From contig NZ_OX458333.1 of the NCBI RefSeq assembly GCF_949769195.1, positions 1,054,001 through 1,118,000 of the forward strand: 64,000 nt of DNA, written 5' to 3'. Positions 26,295 through 39,727 of this stretch are shown in pieces. This stretch comes from Methylocaldum szegediense. GTDB lineage: Bacteria; Pseudomonadota; Gammaproteobacteria; Methylococcales; Methylococcaceae. Numbering within the stretch: the stretch's first letter is position 1; each line of letters opens with the position of its first letter. The position numbers and the translations under genes were made by a program. The notes under the pieces were generated by a model. The model was not told where the DNA came from, ran no database searches, and saw only the letters and a program-made list of their open reading frames with translations.

Positions 26295-26718
26295 GTTGTA
26301 CCTCTGTTAGGGGTATGGTCCATCTTTAGCGCGTTCGTGGTTTTTCTAGTGAAACGTTGCGCCCCTAGTGGTGGGGCGCCGCGACAACCACGAACCCATG
26401 GCGGATCGCAGTTGGGTCGGAAATACCCGAGATGGTGGACGTGGGCGCGCCCCTTTCGCCAAAGGGCGGAAAACTTTAAAGAATCCGGCTCTGCATTTCA
26501 AGTCCCTCTTGTGCACTTAAGTGTTTATCATGGATTCCGTGAATACGGGGTTCAATAGAGAATGATCTGTACGAGTAGCGTAATTCTTTGCCCTGAGCGC
26601 GGTGCGAAGAAAACTGCTATTGTTTGTCGATTGGGTTGCCTACTTGCCTTGTTACCTCAAAATCAAAGACCGTTTTGCAACCACGGTCGAGCATGCGTCC
26701 TGAGCATGGAGAATTGGA
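26295..26718. promoter_or_regulatory. Divergent intergenic region upstream of gltB and the flavin hydroxylase
   Basis: This 424-bp gap must hold the gltBD promoter. It contains three palindromes: GCGCCCC/GGGGCGC (26359-26379, seven-base arms), CCCTTT-CGCC-AAAGGG (26451-26466) and CACTTAAGTG (26514-26523). The first lies 65-85 bases before the gltB start codon and could form a leader hairpin. I could not assign a known operator or a convincing -10/-35 pair. Confidence 0.35.
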
Positions 26719-27936
26719 ATGATCGAAAAATATGACGTCATTGTTGTGGGCGGTGGCATGGTCGGTGCCGCATTGGGATGCGGCCTGGGCGGAAGCCGCC
26801 TGCGAGTGGCCGTGATCGAGGATACGCCGCCGCCGGCTTTTGCGCCCGAACAGCCCCACGATCTTCGCGTGTCCGCCATTAGCGTCGCATCGGCTAGCAT
26901 CCTAAAGACCGTGGGCGCTTGGAGAGGCATCGCGTCGCGTCGATTTTGCCCTTTCCGCAGAATGCGCGTCTGGGAAGAGGCGGGCGAAGTCGAGTTTCGC
27001 AGCGAGGACGTCGACGAGCCGGTGCTCGGTTATATCGTCGAGAACCGGGTGATACAGCTGGCCTTGCTCGATAGACTGGTTGAGTTTCCCAACGTCGATT
27101 TCTTTTGTCCTGCCAAGACCCGGATGATCGACTACGACCCGCTAGGCTCGACCATCGAATTGAATGACGGCCGTACGTTGTCGTCCCACTTACTCGTCGC
27201 TGCGGACGGCGGCTATTCCAGAGTACGGCAGGTAGCCGGGATGGGGGTTAGCGGTTGGGATTACGAACAGCACGCCCTCGTGCTGACGGTGGAGACCGCA
27301 TACGGCCAGCAGGATATTACCTGGCAACGCTTCACGCCCAAGGGGCCCCAGGCTTTCTTGCCGCTCGATGGGCCTCATGCCTCTTTGGTCTGGTACGAGG
27401 CGCCTGAGGAGGTCAAGCGCTTGAAGGCACTGCCGGACGAGGCTCTTCTCGCGGAACTGATCTCGGCGTTCCCGCCCGTTCTGGGTGAGATCAAGCGCAT
27501 CGAGGCGAAAGGCAGTTTCCCGCTCAAGCGCCAGCATGCCTTGAGCTACAGCAAGGAAGGCGTGGCTTTGATCGGCGATGCGGCCCACATGATCCATCCG
27601 CTGGCCGGACAGGGCGTCAACATCGGGCTCCTGGACGCTGCGGCCTTGGCGGAGGTGCTGGTCGACGCCTACAGGAACCATCGAGATATCGGTTCGGCGA
27701 GCGTGCTACGTACCTACGAAAATATGCGTCGTAGCAACAATTTGATCATGATGACGACCATGGACTTGTTTTACCGCGTTTTCGGCACGGCGAACCGTCC
27801 GTTGCGATTCATCCGCAATCTAGGCTTGGGTTTGGCAGAGCGGGTGACACCGGCCAAAAAGTTGGTCATGCGATACGCAATGGGTTTGGGCGGAGGATTG
27901 CCGAACTTGGCGCGCGGCCAAGCTATTCTGGGGTGA
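26719..27936 (+). CDS. UbiH/UbiF/COQ6-family FAD-dependent hydroxylase
   Basis: 405 residues; class A flavoprotein monooxygenase. Dinucleotide-binding DVIVVGGGMVGAALGCGLG at the N-terminus, HLLVAADGGYSRVRQ (the DG motif), and the second FAD motif ALIGDAAHMIHPLAGQGVNIGLLDAAAL near residue 290 are those of ubiquinone-ring hydroxylases. A GGAG lies nine bases before the ATG. Which ring position it hydroxylates cannot be told from sequence alone (UbiF, UbiH and UbiM types overlap). The window also holds ubiCA and ubiEJB, so a role in ubiquinone synthesis is likely. Confidence 0.88.
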   Translation: MIEKYDVIVVGGGMVGAALGCGLGGSRLRVAVIEDTPPPAFAPEQPHDLRVSAISVASASILKTVGAWRGIASRRFCPFRRMRVWEEAGEVEFRSEDVDEPVLGYIVENRVIQLALLDRLVEFPNVDFFCPAKTRMIDYDPLGSTIELNDGRTLSSHLLVAADGGYSRVRQVAGMGVSGWDYEQHALVLTVETAYGQQDITWQRFTPKGPQAFLPLDGPHASLVWYEAPEEVKRLKALPDEALLAELISAFPPVLGEIKRIEAKGSFPLKRQHALSYSKEGVALIGDAAHMIHPLAGQGVNIGLLDAAALAEVLVDAYRNHRDIGSASVLRTYENMRRSNNLIMMTTMDLFYRVFGTANRPLRFIRNLGLGLAERVTPAKKLVMRYAMGLGGGLPNLARGQAILG

Positions 27937-28084
27937 GTACGGGATCACGCTGGAGTTGCAAGATACGTATTTCTTCATATTGAGCGGTGTGAGTTTGCTA
28001 TAGTAAGCGCGGTGGTATTTCAGTGCGTAGTCTCTGATATTTACCAAGACAACCATTAACCTCCCTAAGCAAGTGAAATGACTT

Positions 28085-28489
28085 ATGGTTAGAAAGCAAT
28101 TGGTTAAAAAGCAATCAGTATTTCTTTGCACCGTGCTGGCTTTGAGTGGTTGCGCAACTTACACCGGATGGACGCCGGTGGTGGACACCTACAACAATCC
28201 AAATGCGTACCGTCTTCAGCAGGATTTGGAAGAGTGCAAGATGCTCGCCCGCGAGGCGGCTAGTACCGGAACGGAAGCGCTCAAAGGTGGCGCGGCGGGT
28301 GCTCTGCTGGGTGCCGCGACCGGGGCTGCAGTCGGGGCCGTGGCCGGCAATCCAGGCGGCGGCGCGGCGATTGGCGCGGCCGCAGGCGGGCTTGGCGGTG
28401 CAGGCTACAGCGGTGTGTCCGGTGACGATCTATACAAGCGGGCTTATATCAACTGCCTCCGGAATCGCGGACATAAAGTCATCAATTAA
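28085..28489 (+). CDS. Glycine-zipper outer-membrane lipoprotein
   Basis: 134 residues. The N-terminus is basic (MVRKQLVKKQ), then hydrophobic, ending in the lipobox LSGC (Cys22), so lipidation and export are expected. The centre is a glycine/alanine-rich zipper (about residues 69-110: GGAAGALLGAATGAAVGAVAG and onward) typical of YMGG/Rick_17kDa-like outer membrane proteins. The C-terminal DLYKRAYINCLRNRGHKV is the conserved end of this group. The exact role is unknown. A strong terminator follows. Confidence 0.85.
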   Translation: MVRKQLVKKQSVFLCTVLALSGCATYTGWTPVVDTYNNPNAYRLQQDLEECKMLAREAASTGTEALKGGAAGALLGAATGAAVGAVAGNPGGGAAIGAAAGGLGGAGYSGVSGDDLYKRAYINCLRNRGHKVIN

Positions 28490-28517
28490 TAAGCGAGCGA
28501 TCCGTCCGCAAAGACAG

Positions 28518-28559
28518 AATCCCGCCGTTGCACTTCGAGGTCCGGCGGGATTGTTTTTT
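28518..28559 (+). terminator. Rho-independent terminator after the lipoprotein gene
   Basis: AATCCCGCCG (28518-28527) pairs with CGGCGGGATT (28543-28552), a ten-base-pair stem, followed at once by GTTTTTT. It is the clearest intrinsic terminator in the window and separates the lipoprotein gene from the acyl-CoA synthetase gene. Confidence 0.9.
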
Positions 28560-28612
28560 CTGCGTTCTTCGCCCTGTTCGGGGACGAGAATCGACGAGAA
28601 GGTGTCAGTAGG

Positions 28613-30154
28613 ATGTCGACATTGATCCATGCTCTTCGGGAAAGTGCCCGTCTCTATCCCGATAGGCCGGCGGTATTCCAGGGTTGCGAGGTGATCGACC
28701 ATGCGACCATGGGCGATCGTTCGGATCGGGTTGCGGCGGGTTTGGCGGCGCGAGGCGTAGTCAAAGGGGACCGGATTGCGCTTTATTGTCCCAACTCGGC
28801 GGAGTTCGCCATCGCCTATACCGGCATCGTGAAGGCCGGGGCCGTGGTCGTTCCGATCAATCTGCTGCTGAATACGGAAGAAATCAGCTTCATTCTCGAC
28901 GACTCGGGCGCCAAGGGCTTGATCTTTCATCAGGCTTTTTCGCAGCAGGCGGAAACGGTCCTTCGCACCGCGAGTCGAGTTGAGTTCTCGGTATCCATAG
29001 GCGCCGCCGTCTCTGGCGCTGAGCCGTTTGAGACTTTGCTGAATTCGAACGGGCCGATCCCCGATGTCGATTGCGACCCGCAAGAGGATCTCGTTGTCAT
29101 TCTTTACACCTCGGGCACTACCGGCCGCCCCAAAGGGGCGATGTTGACCCACAGCAATTTGGTGGCCAACACGCGGAGCGTGCGTGAAGCCATGCATTGG
29201 CGTCCGGGTCGGGACATCGTGCTGCTGGTGCTGCCGATGTTTCATGCATTCGCGGCCACGGTCGGCATGCTCACGCCTTTGACGAACGGCTGTGCCTTCG
29301 TCCCGCTGCCGCGGTTCGAGCCGGAAAAGGTCGCCGAGGCGATCCATACCTACCAGGCCACGATTTTCCTGGGCGTCCCCAGCATGTATTCGGTACTGCT
29401 GCGGCTCAAGGATGACCGGGTACGCCTCTTTTCCTCGTTACGCTATTGCGTCTCGGGTGGTGCCGCGCTTCCGGTCGAGGTGCTGAAGCGATTCGACGAA
29501 AAGTTCGGTATCCGGATCTACGAAGGCGACGGGCCGACCGAATGTTCGCCGGTCACGTGCGTGAATCCGATAGGCGGTCTTATCAAGCCGGGGACCGTGG
29601 GGTTGCCGGTACCGGGAGTGGAAATGAAAATCCTCGATGAGGACGGACGCGAACTGCCGTGCGGCCAGGTCGGCGAGATCGCTGTACGCGGCGCGAATGT
29701 AATGAAGGGCTATTGGAAGCAACCGGAAGCGACCCGAGAAGTATTCCGTGGTGAATGGTTTCTCACCGGCGATTTGGGGATGCGGGACGAGGATGGCTAT
29801 TTCAGCATCGTCGATCGGAAAAAGGATTTGATCATCGTCAACGGCATGAACGTGTATCCACGGATGGTCGAGGAGGTGCTGTATCGCTTTCCGTCGATTC
29901 GGGAAGCCGCGGTCGTCGGGGAGCCGCACGATACGCACGGCGAGACTCCGGTTGCCTATATCGCACTCGATCCATCGAAGCCCACCACAGAGGCCGAAGT
30001 CCGCGCCTTTTGCCGGGAACATTTAGGGCGGCATCAGATTCCCCGTAAGATCGTCATTCTGGCGGAGTTGCCAAAAAATGCCGCGGGCAAGATCCTCAAG
30101 CGCCAGCTTCGGAAGCACGGTGAAATCGAGCGCGGCGTTCGGGATCTCGACTAG
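28613..30154 (+). CDS. Long-chain fatty acid--CoA ligase (AMP-forming)
   Basis: 513 residues, ANL superfamily. Activates a carboxylic acid through an acyl-adenylate to the CoA thioester. P-loop-like motif YTSGTTGRPKGAMLTH near residue 164; IRIYEGDGPTECSPV in place of the common YGxTE; GEWFLTGDLGMRDEDGYFSIVDRKKDLI with the hinge Asp/Lys; and the C-terminal catalytic lysine in PKNAAGKILKRQLR. No FadD membrane-targeting features are obvious. Substrate chain length cannot be told from sequence. It converges on bepA with only 27 bp between them. Confidence 0.88.
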   Translation: MSTLIHALRESARLYPDRPAVFQGCEVIDHATMGDRSDRVAAGLAARGVVKGDRIALYCPNSAEFAIAYTGIVKAGAVVVPINLLLNTEEISFILDDSGAKGLIFHQAFSQQAETVLRTASRVEFSVSIGAAVSGAEPFETLLNSNGPIPDVDCDPQEDLVVILYTSGTTGRPKGAMLTHSNLVANTRSVREAMHWRPGRDIVLLVLPMFHAFAATVGMLTPLTNGCAFVPLPRFEPEKVAEAIHTYQATIFLGVPSMYSVLLRLKDDRVRLFSSLRYCVSGGAALPVEVLKRFDEKFGIRIYEGDGPTECSPVTCVNPIGGLIKPGTVGLPVPGVEMKILDEDGRELPCGQVGEIAVRGANVMKGYWKQPEATREVFRGEWFLTGDLGMRDEDGYFSIVDRKKDLIIVNGMNVYPRMVEEVLYRFPSIREAAVVGEPHDTHGETPVAYIALDPSKPTTEAEVRAFCREHLGRHQIPRKIVILAELPKNAAGKILKRQLRKHGEIERGVRDLD

Positions 30155-30181
30155 GCTCCTGCAGCCGCATTTCTTGCAGTT

Positions 30182-31636
30182 TCACTGCTTTCTGCGTTCT
30201 TCCTCTTCGGCGAGCAGCTGTTTCAAGCGTTCGTCGATGACGGAATTGAGATAGAAATCGTTGCCGGCTGCTTTTTGGGCGAGTCGTAGCTGCAATATGG
30301 CGGCACGGTTTTGTCCCGAGGCGTAATAGGATTCGGCCACGTAGCGGTGCGACTCGGCATCGTTGCCGAGTTGGCTGTAGGCTCTCGCCAGCAGCGTATA
30401 GACTTCGGGCGTGGGCGGATGGCGGCGGGTGTAATTCTGGAGCAGCTTGCGCGCTTCTTTCGCCTTACCGGTAGTCAGCAGGACACGAACATAGTTGAGT
30501 GTCAAGGCCCGGTTTTCGGGAAAGCGCTGCAACGCGGCCTCGTAAAGCTCTATCGCACGGGCGTAATTCTTGGTTTCCAGTTCGGCGCTGGCCAGTGCAT
30601 TGGGGAAGTGGGATTGATCTGGGTATACCTCCATGAGCCGCTGGAGGACCGGTTTGGCTTCCGCGGGACGAGCATTCGCGATTAGGGCTAGGGCCAATCC
30701 GTAGGCGGAAACGTCCTGTTGCAGCTTAGTGCCTTGGCCGCTCACGGCTTTGAAATAATTCAGCGCGTCGTGCGGACGGGCGGCGGTCTGTACTCGCAGT
30801 TTGGCGCGAACAAGCTGATAGGCGAAAGAATCCGGATATTGCCGGTAAGGAAACTGTTCCGCGCGTCCGCGGGTATCGGAGATACGGGAAACCGTCACCG
30901 GGTGAGTCATCAGGAATTCGGGCAATTCGCGGCCGACAAAGCGGGTGGATTGCTGCAGTCTTTCGAAAAACGTCGGCATGGCGCGCGGGTCGAAGTCGGA
31001 TTTCGATAAAATTTGCATCCCGACGCGGTCGGCTTCGGCCTCGTTGTCGCGGGTGAAATTGATTTGATACTGAACATTCGCAGCCTGGGCAGCCATCAAG
31101 GCGGCTTGCCCCAACTGCGCGGATTTGGCGCCTAAAAGAACCGCGGCCAGCATCGCGGCGGCGGTGGGTAATGCCAGCCGTCCGGCGGCCTGAAACGTTT
31201 GGTAAAGATGCCGTTGCGTAACGTGCGCAATTTCGTGGGCTAGTACCGAGGCGAGTTCGCTTTCGGCTTCGGAGGTCAGAATCAGTCCGGAGTTGACGCC
31301 GATGTACCCGCCCGGCCCTGCGAACGCATTGATCGTAGGATCGTTGACCACGAAGAAATGAAACGGCTGTGCCGGGTTGTCGCTGGCACCGACCAATTTC
31401 TGCCCTATGGACTGAATGTAATCGTTGACTTCCGGGTCCTGGCTGATTTCGAGCTGTGAGTGCAGTTTGCGGTAAAAAGCTTCGCCCAATTCTTTTTCTT
31501 GCTGCGGCGTCATCAACGTTCCTGTCGGGTCGCCGATTTCGGGCAACTCGAGATTGAGTTGTGCGTAGGCGGGTTGCAGCGCCCATGAGCCGTAACAGAG
31601 AATCAACAGTGAGGCGACCAGTTTGTCGAATTTCAT
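30182..31636 (-). CDS. bepA: BepA-like periplasmic M48 metalloprotease with TPRs
   Basis: 484 residues. A signal peptide (MKFDKLVASLLILCYGSWALQPAYA, cleavage about residue 25) precedes the M48 protease domain with the zinc motif HEIAH at 134-138, the third ligand region NEAEADRVG, and a C-terminal TPR array (about residues 270-470). This matches BepA (YfgC), which in E. coli degrades or matures misassembled outer-membrane proteins such as LptD with the BAM complex. The gene is divergent from tusD. Confidence 0.92.
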   Translation of the reverse strand: MKFDKLVASLLILCYGSWALQPAYAQLNLELPEIGDPTGTLMTPQQEKELGEAFYRKLHSQLEISQDPEVNDYIQSIGQKLVGASDNPAQPFHFFVVNDPTINAFAGPGGYIGVNSGLILTSEAESELASVLAHEIAHVTQRHLYQTFQAAGRLALPTAAAMLAAVLLGAKSAQLGQAALMAAQAANVQYQINFTRDNEAEADRVGMQILSKSDFDPRAMPTFFERLQQSTRFVGRELPEFLMTHPVTVSRISDTRGRAEQFPYRQYPDSFAYQLVRAKLRVQTAARPHDALNYFKAVSGQGTKLQQDVSAYGLALALIANARPAEAKPVLQRLMEVYPDQSHFPNALASAELETKNYARAIELYEAALQRFPENRALTLNYVRVLLTTGKAKEARKLLQNYTRRHPPTPEVYTLLARAYSQLGNDAESHRYVAESYYASGQNRAAILQLRLAQKAAGNDFYLNSVIDERLKQLLAEEEERRKQ

Positions 31637-31722
31637 GATGTTTGAGGGTCGTATGCGGGAGCCGCGAGTGAGTCTGTGATGCGTGGATACGCGATGAACC
31701 GTTTTGAGAGAATGTCGCTGCG

Positions 31723-32076
31723 ATGAAATATGCGATTCAGGTCAACGCCGGGCCGTTTTCGGCGCAAGCGGCGCACACCGCTTATCAGTTTATCAAAGCG
31801 GCGTTGGGCAAAGGTCACGAAATCGTGAGTGTATTCTTTTACCACGACGGCGCTTATAACGCTCTTAGGTCTGGTTCGTCCGCGGAGGTTCACGATTCGG
31901 CACCGCGTTGGTCCGATCTCGCTGATCAATACCGGATCGACCTAGTGTTGTGCGTCTCCGCCGCAGAGCGGCGCGGCCTGGCGACATTCGGTACTGACGG
32001 TTTTCGGGTCGGCGGTTTGGGGCAATGGATTGACGCCTGCCTGAAAGCCGACCGGGTCTTGGTTTTCGGTCCTTGA
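31723..32076 (+). CDS. tusD: Sulfur-relay protein TusD/DsrE
   Basis: 117 residues of the DsrE fold. The active cysteine is Cys77 in LVLCVSAAERRG, matching TusD/DsrE where a persulfide is carried. In E. coli TusBCD passes sulfur from TusA to TusE for the 2-thiouridine of tRNA wobble bases; in sulfur oxidisers the homologous DsrEFH hands sulfur to DsrC. It is the first gene of a tight four-gene set (4-bp gap, then an overlap, then a 3-bp gap), so the products are made together. Confidence 0.92.
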   Translation: MKYAIQVNAGPFSAQAAHTAYQFIKAALGKGHEIVSVFFYHDGAYNALRSGSSAEVHDSAPRWSDLADQYRIDLVLCVSAAERRGLATFGTDGFRVGGLGQWIDACLKADRVLVFGP

Positions 32077-32080
32077 ATCG

Positions 32081-32440
32081 GTGCAAAAGAAATTCTTGTT
32101 TGTCATGCGATCTGCCACCCGAGGCGGTGTCAGAATCCGGGAATCCTTGGACATGGTCATGACCGCCGCTGCGTTCGATCAAGCCGTGCGGCTTCTGATA
32201 CTGGACGACGGTGTTTTCCTGCTCAAGAGGGGGCAACGACCCGAAGCGAGCAAGTTGGCTCCCGTAGCACCGTTGTTTGAAGCTTTGGCGCTGTACGATG
32301 TAGAGGACGTGTGGGTGGAGCGCGAGTCTTTAGAGGCTAGGGGGCTGACCGAGGAAGATCTGGTCATCCCGGTGGGTGTCGTGGAAAGAGCCGACATCGC
32401 CCGTTTGTCAGCGGAACATGACATCGTGGTCTCGTGCTGA
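32081..32440 (+). CDS. tusC: Sulfur-relay protein TusC/DsrF
   Basis: 119 residues from a GTG at 32081, four bases after tusD. The opening KKFLFVMRSATRGGVRIRESLDMVMTAAAFDQAVRLLILDDGVFLL is the DsrF/TusC signature (start strand, P-x-G-like turn, and helix). It forms the heterohexamer with TusB and TusD; it has no active cysteine at the TusD position. Its last codons overlap the tusB start. Confidence 0.9.
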   Translation: MQKKFLFVMRSATRGGVRIRESLDMVMTAAAFDQAVRLLILDDGVFLLKRGQRPEASKLAPVAPLFEALALYDVEDVWVERESLEARGLTEEDLVIPVGVVERADIARLSAEHDIVVSC

Positions 32441-32748
32441 TGGCGGTTCTGCACCTCATCAGCCGTTCGCCTCAGGAGAGCCGTACCTTGGAAGCGTGTC
32501 TCGCTCGCGCCGGCGAGGGCGATGCGGTGCTGCTGATCGAAAACGCGGTCTATGCAGCCTTAAAGAGCGGCGATTGCGAAGCCGTCATAGCCGCGGCCGC
32601 GGGAAAGATCAGGGTTTATGCCTTGGGTCCGGACCTCGTTGCGCGCGGCGTGGAAACCTCTGAGGTCGCCGAGACCATCGGCATCATCGATTACGACGGG
32701 TTCGTCGACTTGACTATTGATTATCACCCTATCCAGTCCTGGTTTTGA
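32434..32748 (+). CDS. tusB: Sulfur-relay protein TusB/DsrH
   Basis: 104 residues. MAVLHLISRSPQESRTLEACLARAGEGDAVLLIENAVYAAL is the DsrH/TusB N-terminus, and the C-terminal ... DYDGFVDLTIDYHPIQSWF matches the family's C-V-x-W-like end. The start overlaps the end of tusC by seven bases; an alternative start is the ATG at 32440 (MAVLHL). Confidence 0.9.
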   Translation: MLMAVLHLISRSPQESRTLEACLARAGEGDAVLLIENAVYAALKSGDCEAVIAAAAGKIRVYALGPDLVARGVETSEVAETIGIIDYDGFVDLTIDYHPIQSWF

Positions 32749-32751
32749 GCC

Positions 32752-33081
32752 ATGATCGAAGTGGACGGAAAAATTCTGGAAACGACCGAGGGCGGATTTT
32801 TGACCGACGCGAACGCCTGGGACGAGCGTGTTGCCGCCGTTCTGGCATCGGGCGTATCTATCGAATTGACCGCCGCGCACTGGGAAATCGTGCGCTTCAT
32901 CCGGGATTACTATTTCAGATTCCGCCATCTTCCGAACACTCGCATGTTCGTTAAGGCGGTGGAGAAAGAATTCGGAGCAGAAAAAGGCAATTCCCGCTAT
33001 CTGCATAGGCTATTTCCGGAGAGCCCTCTGAAATATGCCTGCTTGATCGCCGGGTTGCCGAAGCCGCCGGGGTGTATTTAG
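32752..33081 (+). CDS. tusE: TusE/DsrC-family sulfur carrier with both DsrC cysteines
   Basis: 109 residues, three bases after tusB. The family pattern is clear: MIEVDGKILETTEGGFLTDANAWDE, LTAAHWEIVRFIRDYYFRFRHLPNTRM, GNSRYLHRLFPESPLKYACLIAGLPKPPGCI. The terminal Cys108 is the sulfur-accepting cysteine common to TusE and DsrC. Cys97, ten residues between, is the second cysteine found in DsrC of sulfur-oxidising and sulfate-reducing organisms but absent from E. coli TusE (ATKIAGLPKPVKCI). The protein is therefore DsrC-like; no dsrAB genes lie in the window. Named tusE here only for its place beside tusDCB. Confidence 0.88.
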   Translation: MIEVDGKILETTEGGFLTDANAWDERVAAVLASGVSIELTAAHWEIVRFIRDYYFRFRHLPNTRMFVKAVEKEFGAEKGNSRYLHRLFPESPLKYACLIAGLPKPPGCI

Positions 33082-33480: not shown

Positions 33481-36400
33481 ATGTCTAACGATGATTACCG
33501 CGAAAAGCAGACGATCGATTGGCACAGTCACGATGCGGACGAGGTTATCGAACGGCTCCGTTCGGATCGTCAACGTGGGTTGTCCTCTCAGGAGGCGTGG
33601 CAACGGCTGAAGCGTTTCGGTCGCAACCGTCTTCCGCCGCCGCGTAGGCGCCCTGGTTGGCTACGCTTCCTCCTCCAGTTCCACAACGTCCTGATTTACG
33701 TGATGCTGGTCGCCGGCGCGACCACGGCGATGTTGGGCGATTGGGTCGACACGGCTGTTCTCTTGAGTGCCGTTTTCGTTAACGCCATCATCGGTTTCAT
33801 TCAGGAAGGCAAGGCGGAAAGAGCCCTGGACGCGATCCGCGGCATGCTGTCGCTGCGCACGATTGTAATCCGCGATGCCGAACGCATCGAAATCCGGGCC
33901 GAGGATCTGGTGCCCGGCGATATCGTGGCGCTCACCTCCGGCGACAAAGTGCCCGCCGATCTGCGGCTGATCGCGACCAAAGGGTTGCGTGTGAACGAAG
34001 CCATCCTGACCGGCGAATCCGAGGCCGTGGAAAAGACGGTGGCTCCCGTGCCTGTCGATGCATCTCTGGGCGATCGCACGTGCATGCTTTATTCGGGCAC
34101 GCTAGTGGTTTCCGGGCAGGCGACGGCGGTGACGGTCGCAACCGGCGTTCACACCGAATTGGGCCGAATCAGCGCGATGTTGGAGCGCGTGCAGTCGGTG
34201 ACGACGCCTTTGCTGCGCCAGATTGCAAGGTTCGGCCATTGGCTCGCGCTGGCGATCGTTTTTATGTCCGTGGCCACCTATGCCATCGGTGTGTTGTGGC
34301 ACGGGCATCCGCCCGCAGAGATGTTCATCATGGCCGTGGCACTGGCAGCCTCAGCTATACCGGAAGGGCTGCCGGCCATCATGACCATCACGCTCGCACT
34401 CGGCGTTAGGCGCATGGCTCACCGCAACGCCATCATCCGGCATTTGCCGGCGGTGGAAACGTTGGGTTCGGTCACCGTCATTTGTTCCGACAAGACCGGT
34501 ACCCTGACCCGGAACGAGATGACGGTGCAGCGGGTGATCGCTGCCGACCACATCTTCGAGGTGAGCGGTGTGGGCTATGCGCCGGACGGCGGCATTCATC
34601 TGGGCGGGGAGGCGGTGCCGCCCGATCAATATCCCGAGCTGGCCGAGATTGCCCGTGCCGCCGTGCTTTGCAATGACGCGCAGCTGCGTAAATCGGCCGA
34701 CGAGACCTGGCAGGTGGCGGGCGATCCGACCGAGGGTGCGCTGCTGGCATTCGCCATGAAGGTCGGCATCGACCCGAAGTGGGAGCGGGATTCTTTACCG
34801 CGTACCGATGCCATTCCATTCGAGTCCGAACATCGGCTCATGGCCACGCTCAACCACGATCACGAAGGACGGGGAACCGTTTACGTCAAGGGCGCGCCTG
34901 AACGGGTCTTTGAGATGTGCGATCGCCAGGGCTGCTTACAGGAGGCGCTGCTGGATCTGGAGTATTGGCGCCGTGCTGCCGCGGATGCTGCCGCGGATGG
35001 ACTGCGGCTCCTCGCGATCGCAGCAAAGCCCGCCGAGGAAGCGCAATGCGAGGTTCAGTTTTCGGATTTGAAGAACGGTTTCCGGTTGCTTGCGCTAGTC
35101 GGCATCATTGACCCGCCGCGAGACGAAGCGGTGGCGGCCGTGGAAGCGTGCAAAACTGCGGGCATCCGGGTGAAGATGATCACTGGCGACCACGTCGATA
35201 CGGCGCGCGCCATCGGCGCGCAGCTCGGGATCGGCCGCAATCGGCCGGCGTTGACCGGAGCCGAGATCGAGAGCATGGATGACGCGCAATTGCGCGATGC
35301 GGTACTGGATGTCGATGTGTTCGCGCGAGCCAGCCCAGAGCACAAGCTGCGCTTGGTGCAGGCACTGCAGGCAGCGGGACAGGTGGTCGCGATGACCGGG
35401 GATGGGGTGAACGACGCGCCCGCGCTGAAGCGCGCGGACGTCGGCGTGGCGATGGGATTGAAGGGTACCGAGGCGGCCAAGGAAGCGGCGGATATGGTGC
35501 TGGCCGACGACAATTTCGCTACGATCGGCAACGCCGTTCGCGAAGGACGGGGCATCTACGACAACATCCGGAAATTCGTTCTGTTCATGCTGCCGACCAA
35601 CGGCGGCGAGGCGTTGGTGGTGATCGCCGCAATATTGTTTGAGCTGGCACTCCCGCTGACACCGGCTCAGGTGCTCTGGATCAATATGGTAACCTCGAGC
35701 ACTTTGGGGCTTGCCTTAGCCTTCGAGCGTCCCGAGCACGACATCATGCGCCGCCCGCCGCGCGACCCTAAGGAATCGCTGCTTTCGTGGTTCTTCGGCT
35801 GGCGAATTCTGATGGTCTCCGTACTCATGATGGCGGGCTCACTGGGTCTGTTCCTTTGGGAGTTGGATCGCGGCTCCAGCCTGGAAACCGCGCGAACTAT
35901 GGCGGTCAGCGCGGTCGTGGCGGCGGAGATGTTCTACCTGATCAACAGTCGCTATATTTTTAAATCCGTCCTCTCGCTCGAAGGGCTGTTCGGCAATCGC
36001 TATGTGCTGATCGCGATCGCGGCCTGTGCGGGGCTGCAGTTCGCCTACACGCATACCCGGCCGTTGCAGGTACTATTCGGTTCGACCGATCTGTCGCCGG
36101 AAGAATGGTTGAAGGTGATGCTGGCCGGTATGTTCGTGTTCAGCGTCGCCGAAATGGAAAAAGCGGTGATCCGCCTCTCCAGGCATATACGCCGAAAGCT
36201 TCGCGCCGGAACAAAAACGGAATCCCGACACCTACACAAAGAGGAGGGCCATTTGAGAACACCGAAAACTGTATTGGCGGCAACCGACTTCTCGGATGAC
36301 GCCACAAATGCTGCCTGCCGGGCGGCCATGCTGGCTGCGGAACAGGGGGGACGGCTGGAACTGCTACATGTGGTGAGCGGAACTTCGCCGGCGGTTGTGC

Positions 36401-37152
36401 GCGAAATGCTCCTTACGCACGACGGAGCCGAAGAGAAGCTGATCAACGATGCGCAACAGAGGTTGGACGCGGCGAAGTTGAAGATCACCGCGAAGACCCA
36501 CGTGGCCGCGTTTTCAAGAGTCGCGATCGGATCCGTGCCGGAAGAGATCCTGTCGGCCTCCGAGCAGGCGGATTTGCTGGTTTTGGGCGCGCACGGCCTA
36601 AGCCCTTGGCGTGATTTCTTGCTCGGCACAACGGCAGACCGCTTGCTCAGAACGTGCAAAAGGCCGGTCCTCGTGGTTAAGCGTCGGCCGGACGCACCTT
36701 ATCGGCGCGTCCTGGTTCCGGTCGATTTTTCTCCCCACTCCGTCGCCGCCTTGAAGATGGCGATGCGGATCGCACCTGACGCCGACATCATGGTTGTCCA
36801 TGGTTCCGCCGTGGCTTTCGAAGGCGTGCTTCAGGACGCGGGGGTCGTCGAGGACGATATCGACAACTATCGTGCTCAGTCACAACGCCAAGCGCTGAGC
36901 GGTCTCAACTCGCTGATCGACGAGGTCTCTGACGGCTCGCACCGGATTTTTCGAGTTGTCGAGCACGAGAATGCCGCTCGTCTGATCCTGGCCAAGGAAG
37001 AATCGTTCAAAGCGGACCTGATCGTTATCGGCAAACACGGGAAAACGATCGTCGAGGAGATGCTCCTGGGCAGCGTGACGCGTCGCATCCTGTCCGATTC
37101 GAAATCCGATGTGCTGATCGTGCACGAAAGTTCCGTGGTCAAAGACCCTTAG
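33481..37152 (+). CDS. P-type cation ATPase fused to two universal-stress (UspA) domains
   Basis: 1223 residues. Residues 1 to about 905 form a complete P2-type ATPase: N-terminal cation-ATPase domain ([26 protein letters not shown]), actuator TGES motif ([11 protein letters not shown]), TM4 AIPEGLP, phosphorylation Asp337 in CSDKTGTLT, nucleotide-domain KGAPERV, hinge [20 protein letters not shown] and C-terminal helices with [22 protein letters not shown] points to the Ca2+/Mn2+-type or related type II pumps, but the TM6 aspartate typical of SERCA is Ser here, so the ion is uncertain. Residues about 928-1063 and 1068-1218 are tandem UspA domains ([17 protein letters not shown]-x8[21 protein letters not shown]; [38 protein letters not shown]), both with the G-x-x-G ATP-loop pattern. 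See the embedded start at 36253. Confidence 0.92.
36241..36255 (+). promoter_or_regulatory. Ribosome-binding site and in-frame TTG inside the ATPase-UspA fusion
   Basis: GAGGAGG (36241-36247) stands five bases before TTG at 36253, in frame with the fusion (codon 925) and exactly where the first UspA domain begins ([14 protein letters not shown]). It looks like a complete translation start for a separate UspA-UspA protein of about 299 residues. Either it is a relic of two once-separate genes or it still produces a free UspA protein beside the fusion. Confidence 0.55.
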
Positions 37153-37562: not shown

Positions 37563-39575
37563 ATGCATAATTTGGGATTACTAGAAAATATTGCCGTTAC
37601 GCTCACCGTAGCTTTTATTGGGGGGCTCATCGTTCAACGGATCGGCCTGCCATCCATCGTGGGGTATTTGCTCGCGGGCGTGGCCATCGGTCCGTTCACG
37701 CCGGGGTATCTGGCCGATTCTCACACCATCAACCAATTGGCGGAATTGGGCGTCATCTTCCTAATGTACGGCGTGGGGCTACATTTTTCCTTCGCCGATC
37801 TGTGGAAAGTGCGTGACGTCGCAATTGTGGGCACATTGGGGCAGATGTTGACCATGCTGGCACTGGGTTATGGCCTGAGTCAGTATTGGGGCTGGACGCC
37901 CAAGTCCGGCTTGGTCTTGGGGCTGGTGCTGTCGATCGCCAGCACTATCGTGATGCTCCGAGGATTCATGGACAAAGGCTGGCTCAATACGCCGGACGGC
38001 CAGGTCGCGGTCGGCTGGCGCGTCATGGAGGACATCGCCACGGTCCTTATGATTATGATCCTGCCCAATTTGGCCGACACCGGAAAGCCCATGGAATGGC
38101 AGTCGCTTGGGCTCGCTCTGCTTTCGGCCTTGGGCTTTCTCGTGGTGATGCTGTTCGTAGGCAAACGTTTTATTCCCTGGCTGCTGCTGCGGGTGGCCCA
38201 TACCCGTTCGCGCGAGCTGTTCATCCTGGCGGTCCTGGCCTGCTCCTTGGGTATCGCCCTGGGCGCCGCGCAATTGTTCGGGGTTTCGTTGGCGCTGGGG
38301 GCTTTCGTCGCGGGAGCCGTGGTGAGCGAATCGCCGCTCAGCCACCGCGTCGCATCCGATCTGTTGCCGTTCCGGGAAGCCTTTTCCGTGCTGTTCTTCG
38401 TGTCCGTCGGCATGATGCTCGATCCGACCTTCCTGGTGGAACATATCGAACCGGTACTGATTCTGACCGCTCTGGTTGTCATCGGAAAGTTCATCGTCTC
38501 GGGGGTCTGGGTATTGCCTTTCCCGCGCCCCGCGAGTACCGCGCTGGTGGTTGCGGCCGGCTCCTGCCAAATCGGCGAATTCTCCTTCATTCTGGATCAG
38601 ACCGGCCTGAGTCTCGGCATTCTGGATGAGAGCCAACACGCGTTGATATTGGCCGCCGCTCTTCTGTCCATTGTCGTGAATCCGTTCATGCTGCACAGCG
38701 TCGATCCGCTGCAACGCAGCCTGCGCGGGGTTCAGCCGCTGTGGCGATGGTTGAACCGGCATGGTTCGACGCATACGCCCGCGGAGGAGTCGATTTCGGA
38801 TCACGTTGTGGTGGTCGGTTACGGCCGGGTGGGCTCGCATATCGTCGATGTTATGGGCGAACTGGGAATTCCGTATCTGGTCATCGATTTCCGTATTAGT
38901 CGGATCGAGAAATTAGCTAAACGGGGGGTTCCCACACTTTTAGGCGATACGGCCAATTCGGATATCCTCAGCCATGCGGCGTTGCACCGGGCTCGTTTGC
39001 TCGTGGTCACTCTGCCTGAAGAAGCGGCTACCGAATTGACGGTCGCGGCAGCCCGCGACATTGCCCCGAATCTTCCGATCATCGCTCGCGCCGCGACCCG
39101 GGCAGGCGTCAAACGACTGTCGGAATTGGGCGCGCAATTGGTGATCCATCCAGAATTGGAAGGCGGCTTGCAGGTGCTGAGGCACACGCTATTGCAACTG
39201 GGTTTTCCGCTGCACGAAGTCCGGCGTTACGCGGATACGGTGCGACGCGAAAACTACGAGGCCTTGGTCAAATCGCAGGGCGAGCACGCCTTGCTCCGCG
39301 ATCTGCTCGACGCCTCCGAGCTGATCGATATCGCCTGGAGAAAAGTGCCCGAGGGGAGTCCCCTGGCCGGCAAACTGCTGGGCGAAGCCGCCTTGCGAAC
39401 CCGGACCGGCGCGACACTGGTGGCGATCAAGCGCAAGAACGAACTGATGGTCAACCCGTCGACCCAGACCGTGTTTCTTCCGGGAGACCGGATCGGTTTG
39501 CTCGGAAATCCGGAGCAGTTGGAGGCTGTGGAGCGTTTGTTGGCCCCGCAGCCACAGGAGTCTGATGCGGCGTGA
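37563..39575 (+). CDS. CPA2-family K+/H+ antiporter with regulatory TrkA-N and TrkA-C domains (KefB/YbaL-like)
   Basis: 670 residues. Residues 1 to about 385 form the Na+/H+ exchanger-type membrane domain with some 12 helices (LLENIAVTLTVAFIGGLIVQRIGLPSIVGYLLAGVAIGPF at the start; FGVSLALGAFVAGAVVSESPL; LFFVSVGMMLDP). A Rossmann RCK/TrkA-N domain begins near residue 415 (HVVVVGYGRVGSHIVDVMGELGIPYLVID ... LLGDTANSDIL) and a TrkA-C domain occupies about 575-655. This layout matches KefB/KefC/YbaL potassium-efflux systems. The ATG at 37563 follows a structured 410-bp gap after the ATPase-UspA gene. Confidence 0.93.
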   Translation: MHNLGLLENIAVTLTVAFIGGLIVQRIGLPSIVGYLLAGVAIGPFTPGYLADSHTINQLAELGVIFLMYGVGLHFSFADLWKVRDVAIVGTLGQMLTMLALGYGLSQYWGWTPKSGLVLGLVLSIASTIVMLRGFMDKGWLNTPDGQVAVGWRVMEDIATVLMIMILPNLADTGKPMEWQSLGLALLSALGFLVVMLFVGKRFIPWLLLRVAHTRSRELFILAVLACSLGIALGAAQLFGVSLALGAFVAGAVVSESPLSHRVASDLLPFREAFSVLFFVSVGMMLDPTFLVEHIEPVLILTALVVIGKFIVSGVWVLPFPRPASTALVVAAGSCQIGEFSFILDQTGLSLGILDESQHALILAAALLSIVVNPFMLHSVDPLQRSLRGVQPLWRWLNRHGSTHTPAEESISDHVVVVGYGRVGSHIVDVMGELGIPYLVIDFRISRIEKLAKRGVPTLLGDTANSDILSHAALHRARLLVVTLPEEAATELTVAAARDIAPNLPIIARAATRAGVKRLSELGAQLVIHPELEGGLQVLRHTLLQLGFPLHEVRRYADTVRRENYEALVKSQGEHALLRDLLDASELIDIAWRKVPEGSPLAGKLLGEAALRTRTGATLVAIKRKNELMVNPSTQTVFLPGDRIGLLGNPEQLEAVERLLAPQPQESDAA

Positions 39576-39727
39576 AAGCATCCGGGTAACGCTGCTATCT
39601 ACCGGAAATAATCAGAGTGGTTTTCGGTTTAGCTCGAGGATGTCAAGGTCGACTCTCGGGCTAGACCTGCGGCGACGCAAGTGACAAAGGCGCTACCGTT
39701 TGCAGGAATTTGTACGGCGATGGAGGT

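Follow-up and report, generated by a model that had tools for sequence, protein, structure and literature searches.

A P-type ATPase and two Usp domains in one reading frame

The window analysed here, a 64,000 nucleotide stretch of the 4.9 Mb genome of the methanotroph Methylocaldum szegediense, harbours an ATG-initiated open reading frame of 1223 codons, free of internal stops, in which a P-type ATPase is joined through a basic linker to a tandem pair of Usp domains (Table 1). The pump part possesses the full P2 set of Pfam domains, including Cation_ATPase_C, and the phosphorylation motif and the PEGLP sequence of helix M4, which we take to be marks of P2 (type II) pumps, are invariant across the four fused proteins found in this study. 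Beyond the linker lie two stretches matching the Usp family (PF00582), which together score 159.9 bits against a cut-off of 24. This architecture, contained within a single open frame, agrees with the original prediction that a complete type II pump runs straight into tandem UspA domains. Each of the two domains carries the motif of the ATP-binding, MJ0577-type Usp proteins, such that nucleotide binding is predicted; the pair scores well below the UspE equivalog model of NCBIfam (32.6 versus 227 bits), and prediction of the fold of the Usp part from two input sequences gave a mean pLDDT of 36.7, too low to be interpreted.

Table 1. Features of the pump-Usp locus, numbered from the first nucleotide of the window
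Feature	Position	Strand	Basis or remark
Fused gene: P2-type P-type ATPase, linker and tandem Usp (1223 aa)	33481..37152	+	Open reading frame, Pfam, orthologues
Pump part, residues 14-895	33520..36165	+	Pfam: Cation_ATPase_N, E1-E2_ATPase, Cation_ATPase, Hydrolase, Cation_ATPase_C
Catalytic Asp D337 in CSDKTGTLT	34489..34491	+	Invariant in 4/4 fused proteins
Basic linker, residues 896-928	36166..36264	+	Alignment of orthologues
Possible internal start: AAAGAGGAG, 6 nt, in-frame TTG (codon 925)	36238..36255	+	Sequence pattern only
Usp domain 1	36265..36681	+	Pfam; genome-wide mapping, same open frame
Usp domain 2	36700..37125	+	Pfam; genome-wide mapping, same open frame
CPA2-type cation/proton antiporter, 670 aa	37563..39575	+	Na_H_Exchanger, TrkA_N and TrkA_C; 410 bp downstream of fused gene

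With 216.1 bits, the product of the antiporter gene stays under the 238.3 bits required by TIGR00932, the NCBIfam model of the CPA2 subfamily, hence 'CPA2-type' is used here for a likeness by domains. Just upstream of the fused gene, DsrE-like and DsrC/TusE-like sulphur-relay genes occupy window positions 32081-33081. Scans for promoters and terminators gave counts within the scatter of shuffled sequences (1 versus 1.7, and 7 versus 4.8 with a standard deviation of 2.3).

Distribution, descent and selection

Full-length, stop-free orthologues of the fusion were found, among 61 genomes searched, in three other species: one of the same genus (G003, 89% identity), G017 (75%) and G006 (73%). A missed stop codon between the two parts, which the original prediction had named as one way in which it might fail, is thereby excluded at the sequence level. 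An artefact of annotation, sequencing or assembly, in which the stop between two genes was overlooked, is almost certainly the wrong explanation for a frame that runs uninterrupted through four assemblies of different species. The fusion is present in four of the 38 genomes of the family, the window's included, and one more, Methylocaldum sp. 14B (G001), has the Usp part only.

No other fused frame was detected at E <= 1e-60 in samples of the window's class (369), a second class (337) and the phylum (398), which cover one phylum; a fusion could have been missed, as the samples partly overlap and three or four candidates were scored per genome. G766, where a match spans both parts, was rejected as a further fusion, as its tandem Usp is a separate frame beginning 12 bp behind the pump. 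A scan of the genome collection with a Usp profile, for which just two short patterns were used, gave two loci. When plasmid records, through which alone phyla beyond Pseudomonadota were covered, were queried with the whole protein, 20 of the 490 with a match were covered over at least 80%; of the two among these that were listed, one (H4) contains two separate genes, and in the other (H9, a record without annotation) the pump frame stops at 914 aa. A query restricted to the junction reached 80% in one of 184 records, which was again the pair of separate genes in H4. The original prediction had further held that this exact layout is not widely described; likewise, among the matches listed by a full-text literature search, none described a P-type ATPase-Usp layout by title or abstract opening, and the terms 'universal stress', 'fusion' and 'fused' are absent from the main text of a recent P-type ATPase review (PMC10654040).

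On a FastTree phylogeny of 105 pumps, the four fused pumps form one clade with a local support of 100. This sits within a nine-member clade that also takes in the pump encoded next to lasR in Pseudomonas aeruginosa, one from a Rhodococcus plasmid and those of G598, G188 and G221. Judged from the sequences, the pump-Usp fusion is genuine, conserved and confined to one clade on this tree.

Pairwise comparisons with G003, G017 and G006, based on simple counts in which synonymous sites are near saturation for the far pairs, gave dN/dS values of 0.10-0.12 for the pump and 0.14-0.30 for the Usp domains, with dN in the Usp halves 2 to 2.6 times that of the pump. By these ratios, purifying selection acts on the pump part and on each of the Usp domains. 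The linker, counted over residues 897-928, is poorly conserved between genera (38% and 22% identity; dN/dS 0.96 and 1.32, versus 0.15 against G003). The motif G-2X-G-9X-G(S/T) is found in both Usp domains of all four fused proteins.

The syntenic locus of Methylocaldum sp. 14B (NZ_MSCV01000007.1) aligns with window positions 26703-33081, then 36216-37134, then 37563-39592, and no alignment to the pump part was found there. Its Usp gene, 281 bp upstream of the antiporter, is nested in the fused clade of the Usp tree beside two Methylocaldum fusions (support 99/93), retains the KEE stretch of the linker and has a dN/dS of 0.22-0.26. On the basis of the nested position, the kept linker stretch and the synteny, the pump has most likely been deleted from this locus, with purifying selection acting on the Usp pair that stayed behind; the opposite polarity, with the free Usp gene of 14B as the ancestral state, is unlikely on the same three grounds. 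As the pair is present without the pump in 14B, it has some function apart from the pump, and this locus provides a natural control for the pump's absence.

Separate Usp and antiporter genes beside related pumps

Homologous pumps in other genomes are in some cases adjoined by tandem Usp and CPA2 genes of their own. A census of the pump rows of the class sample (79 loci fetched and 78 counted, omitting L212, which had no pump match over the limit, and not counting apart a second pump of G419 inside L176) compared regions near pumps with flanks at 0.5-6 kb through binomial tests. A tandem Usp gene lies within 500 bp of the pump in six of the 78 loci, equivalent to an 11-fold greater density (7 in 73.9 kb near pumps versus 6 in 703.7 kb of flank; p = 7e-5), and a CPA2 gene does so in five (8-fold; p = 0.002). 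The original prediction, in which the UspA domains could gate the pump, is supported in part, in that separate tandem-Usp genes in the window's class adjoin homologous pumps above chance; an earlier count of 60 loci is not relied upon, as it took in G598 and G766, the latter chosen with its adjacent Usp already known. The remaining 72 of 78 loci lack a Usp within 500 bp (some of the stretches reaching a contig end), hence such a neighbour is not a general requirement of the pump. In the second class, for which 19 of 24 pump rows entered the census, CPA2 genes were found near the pump at three of 19 loci (p = 7e-4), and Usp genes were not enriched beside pumps, occurring at one of the 19, as a single domain (p = 0.47).

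The partners are arranged in a number of ways. One-strand cassettes run in the order CPA2-pump-Usp in L166 and L215, and pump-CPA2-Usp in L235 and L243, where the frames overlap; L118 is similarly pump-CPA2-Usp, L121 is pump-CPA2-CPA2-Usp and L125 is CPA2-Usp-pump. On the Novosphingobium plasmid pLA4, a tandem Usp gene is found 12 bp behind the pump and is followed by a calcium/sodium antiporter. Two genomes of the family have a tandem Usp gene 94-151 bp before the pump. In G188, the host of a close relative of the fused pump and also of a second, divergent tandem Usp, a tandem-Usp frame with the start AAGGAG-N6-ATG begins 26 nt behind the pump stop. The gap from pump to Usp is 12 bp in L051 and L113 and 2 bp in L215, based on annotated or mechanical starts; outside pLA4 and G188, gaps are measured from the earliest start codon. 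As for the fusions themselves, the antiporter gene lies 213 bp behind the fused gene in G003, and in G017 and G006 an identical search of 16 kb detected no CPA2 gene next to the fusion.

The state of adjacency to a pump requires six changes on the Usp tree, at least three of them forced by well supported branches, and the label for an unfused pump with an adjacent Usp requires eight on the pump tree, at least seven of them forced. These counts, which are blind to gain versus loss and include some long Usp branches, indicate that the pairing has probably been formed, or lost, several times. The nucleotide motif is present in both domains of three, in the second domain only of two and in neither domain of nine of the 14 pump-adjacent tandem Usps; among 14 free tandem Usps, the corresponding numbers are eight, four and two.

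Candidate ion and interpretations of the fusion

Among solved structures, the pump part is best matched by SPCA1, LMCA1 and SERCA. Residues E295, N707, E710, N735, T738 and E816 match SERCA E309, N768, E771, N796, T799 and E908, six of the seven calcium ligands of that pump; the match of E295 was made via the SPCA1 alignment. The central Asp of M6, SERCA D800, differs, being represented by S739. As 101 of the 105 pumps on the tree are without an Asp at this position, its absence is a trait of the family; by pattern, three have it (L042, L043 and L045), L041 gave no match, and L055 has an Asp one position earlier. The pump also falls below the NCBIfam cut-offs for PMR1 (661.3 versus 798.3 bits) and SERCA (638.6 versus 703.4 bits). 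The P. aeruginosa pump encoded beside lasR (NZ_CP131792.1), presumably PA1429, is 65.6% identical to the pump part, belongs to the same nine-member clade and differs in ending at 902 aa without a fused Usp. In Mycobacterium tuberculosis, the pump CtpF (Rv1997) and Rv1996, which we take to be a tandem Usp, are comparable by description, with the two components encoded by separate genes. These genes are reported to share one DosR block (PMC5309233). CtpF is described as a P2-type pump that moves calcium out of the cell (PMC9180918), having been left among possible transporters of Na+, K+, Ca2+, H+ or Mg2+ in a 2012 profile study (PMC3573892), and an influence on calcium homeostasis is ascribed to PA1429 (PMC5770612, citing Guragain 2013). 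Given these reports, the solved relatives and the kept ligands, Ca2+ is the first candidate by homology for the pumped ion, with a monovalent ion the second.

The fusion is best read as a variant, physically joined, of the cation-stress cassette of pump, Usp and antiporter that recurs in other genomes. More specifically, the protein may be a cation-exporting ATPase of the P2 type that carries its own nucleotide-responsive regulator in the cytosol and works with the CPA2 antiporter, a proposal that we hold to be about evenly balanced between right and wrong. As P2 pumps have a cytosolic C-terminus, the Usp pair, which follows the last membrane helix on a basic and presumably flexible linker, would lie in the cytosol. 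The pump would export its cation by the usual P-type cycle, while the two Usp domains might bind ATP or another adenine nucleotide and report the energy or stress state of the cell to it, shifting its activity; pump and neighbouring antiporter could then jointly restore cation balance under stress. Through fusion, pump and regulator, otherwise loosely paired, would be held in a 1:1 ratio. The related genomes in which the same partners are neighbouring genes suggest that the stress domains may tune the pump.

There are precedents and related systems for this proposal. The fused Usp sequence matches structures 2jax and 3cis, which we take to be Rv2623, a protein that likewise has two Usp domains in one chain. 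Rv2623 is a free protein, described as interacting with the transporter Rv1747 and as acting through phosphothreonine and an FHA domain (PMC5549992). In archaea, Usp domains have been reported fused to Na+/H+ exchangers or amino-acid permeases (PMC12159084), which as secondary transporters differ from a P-type ATPase, and the Usp domain of KdpD is reported to bind c-di-AMP (PMC4686210).

A strictly pump-bound role for the Usp domains is opposed by the pump-less pair of 14B, by the nine motif-less pump-adjacent Usps out of 14 and by the lack of enrichment in the second class. The main rival explanation dispenses with gating: the fusion would serve to anchor a stress protein at the membrane, in fixed stoichiometry, for the CPA2 antiporter or for other partners. 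We regard this as less probable, though the pairing of Usp and antiporter genes lends it some weight, as a tandem Usp adjoins CPA2 in L115, L117 and L119, where the 11-12 kb retrieved contain no pump; the free Usp nearest to the fused ones on the tree apart from that of 14B, L059/L115, is found 34 bp behind a CPA2 gene, and the Usp gene of 14B is still beside the antiporter in the absence of the pump. However, the fusions of G017 and G006 have no CPA2 gene in the 16 kb searched, and there the Usp is still fused and under purifying selection. It is also conceivable that the fusion is near-neutral, a downstream Usp gene having lost its separation from the pump without coupling and without harm to either part. 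In its favour, the two frames lie head to tail with tiny gaps in G188, L051, L113 and L215, and the Usp part survives alone in 14B, but the in-frame fusion has been kept across three genera, with synonymous divergence at roughly 1 per site or above and with both parts constrained, which makes this an unlikely account.

A further proposal is that one gene gives two products, the full-length protein acting as a pump with a tethered sensor and a free tandem Usp of approximately 299 aa, made from a ribosome site at codon 925, acting as a soluble protein for the adjacent antiporter. The start pattern occurs at the same place in G003 (L046) and, with GTG and the same purine box and distance, in 14B, where the Usp part is kept as a gene of its own with no pump at the locus; none was found at the domain boundary in G017 or G006 (L047 and L048). 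It is one of two in-frame starts in the window's frame that follow one of nine Shine-Dalgarno-like hexamers by 4-10 nt, and the only hexamer-preceded in-frame start in that of G003, with TTG accounting for 23% and 13% of leucine codons in the two genes. As sequences this close are not independent, the pattern is a hint only, and the two-product arrangement is rather doubtful.

What many Usp proteins do exactly is, to our knowledge, not known. With a Usp pair attached to a pump whose catalytic cycle can be measured, an effect of Usp-bound nucleotide on that pump becomes directly testable, and the recurrence of the pump, Usp and CPA2 cassette points to a common job in cation stress.

Modules of other kinds, which like the antiporter partner did not feature in the original prediction, are fused to pumps of the same family; the family may consequently serve more generally as a platform on which cation export is regulated. 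Seven pumps (L013, L020, L022, L023, L024, L038 and L128) have a C-terminal extension of approximately 300-340 aa, which consists of Cation_efflux (CDF) and ZT_dimer domains by Pfam in L013, L038 and L128 and by sequence likeness in the other four. An extra 135-155 aa or so is found at the C-terminus of L010 and, judged by length, of L011, L012, L015, L017 and L018; it is PsiE-like in L010, the only one scanned. N-terminal extensions of approximately 200 aa are present in L163, L168 and L186, with no Pfam name for those of L163 and L168. An AI-2E family transporter domain is fused to the P-type ATPase at the C-terminus in L044 and at the N-terminus in L042. On the Methylocystis rosea plasmid pGW6_1, a P-type ATPase (L055:5061-8579) carries a HlyD/CusB-like membrane-fusion domain at its C-terminus, which would have to lie outside the cytosol if that domain functions as in HlyD. 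The genome carrying the fused gene itself encodes, near position 2712567 of G000:C1, a 1125 aa P-type ATPase with an N-terminal HlyIII domain (L041).
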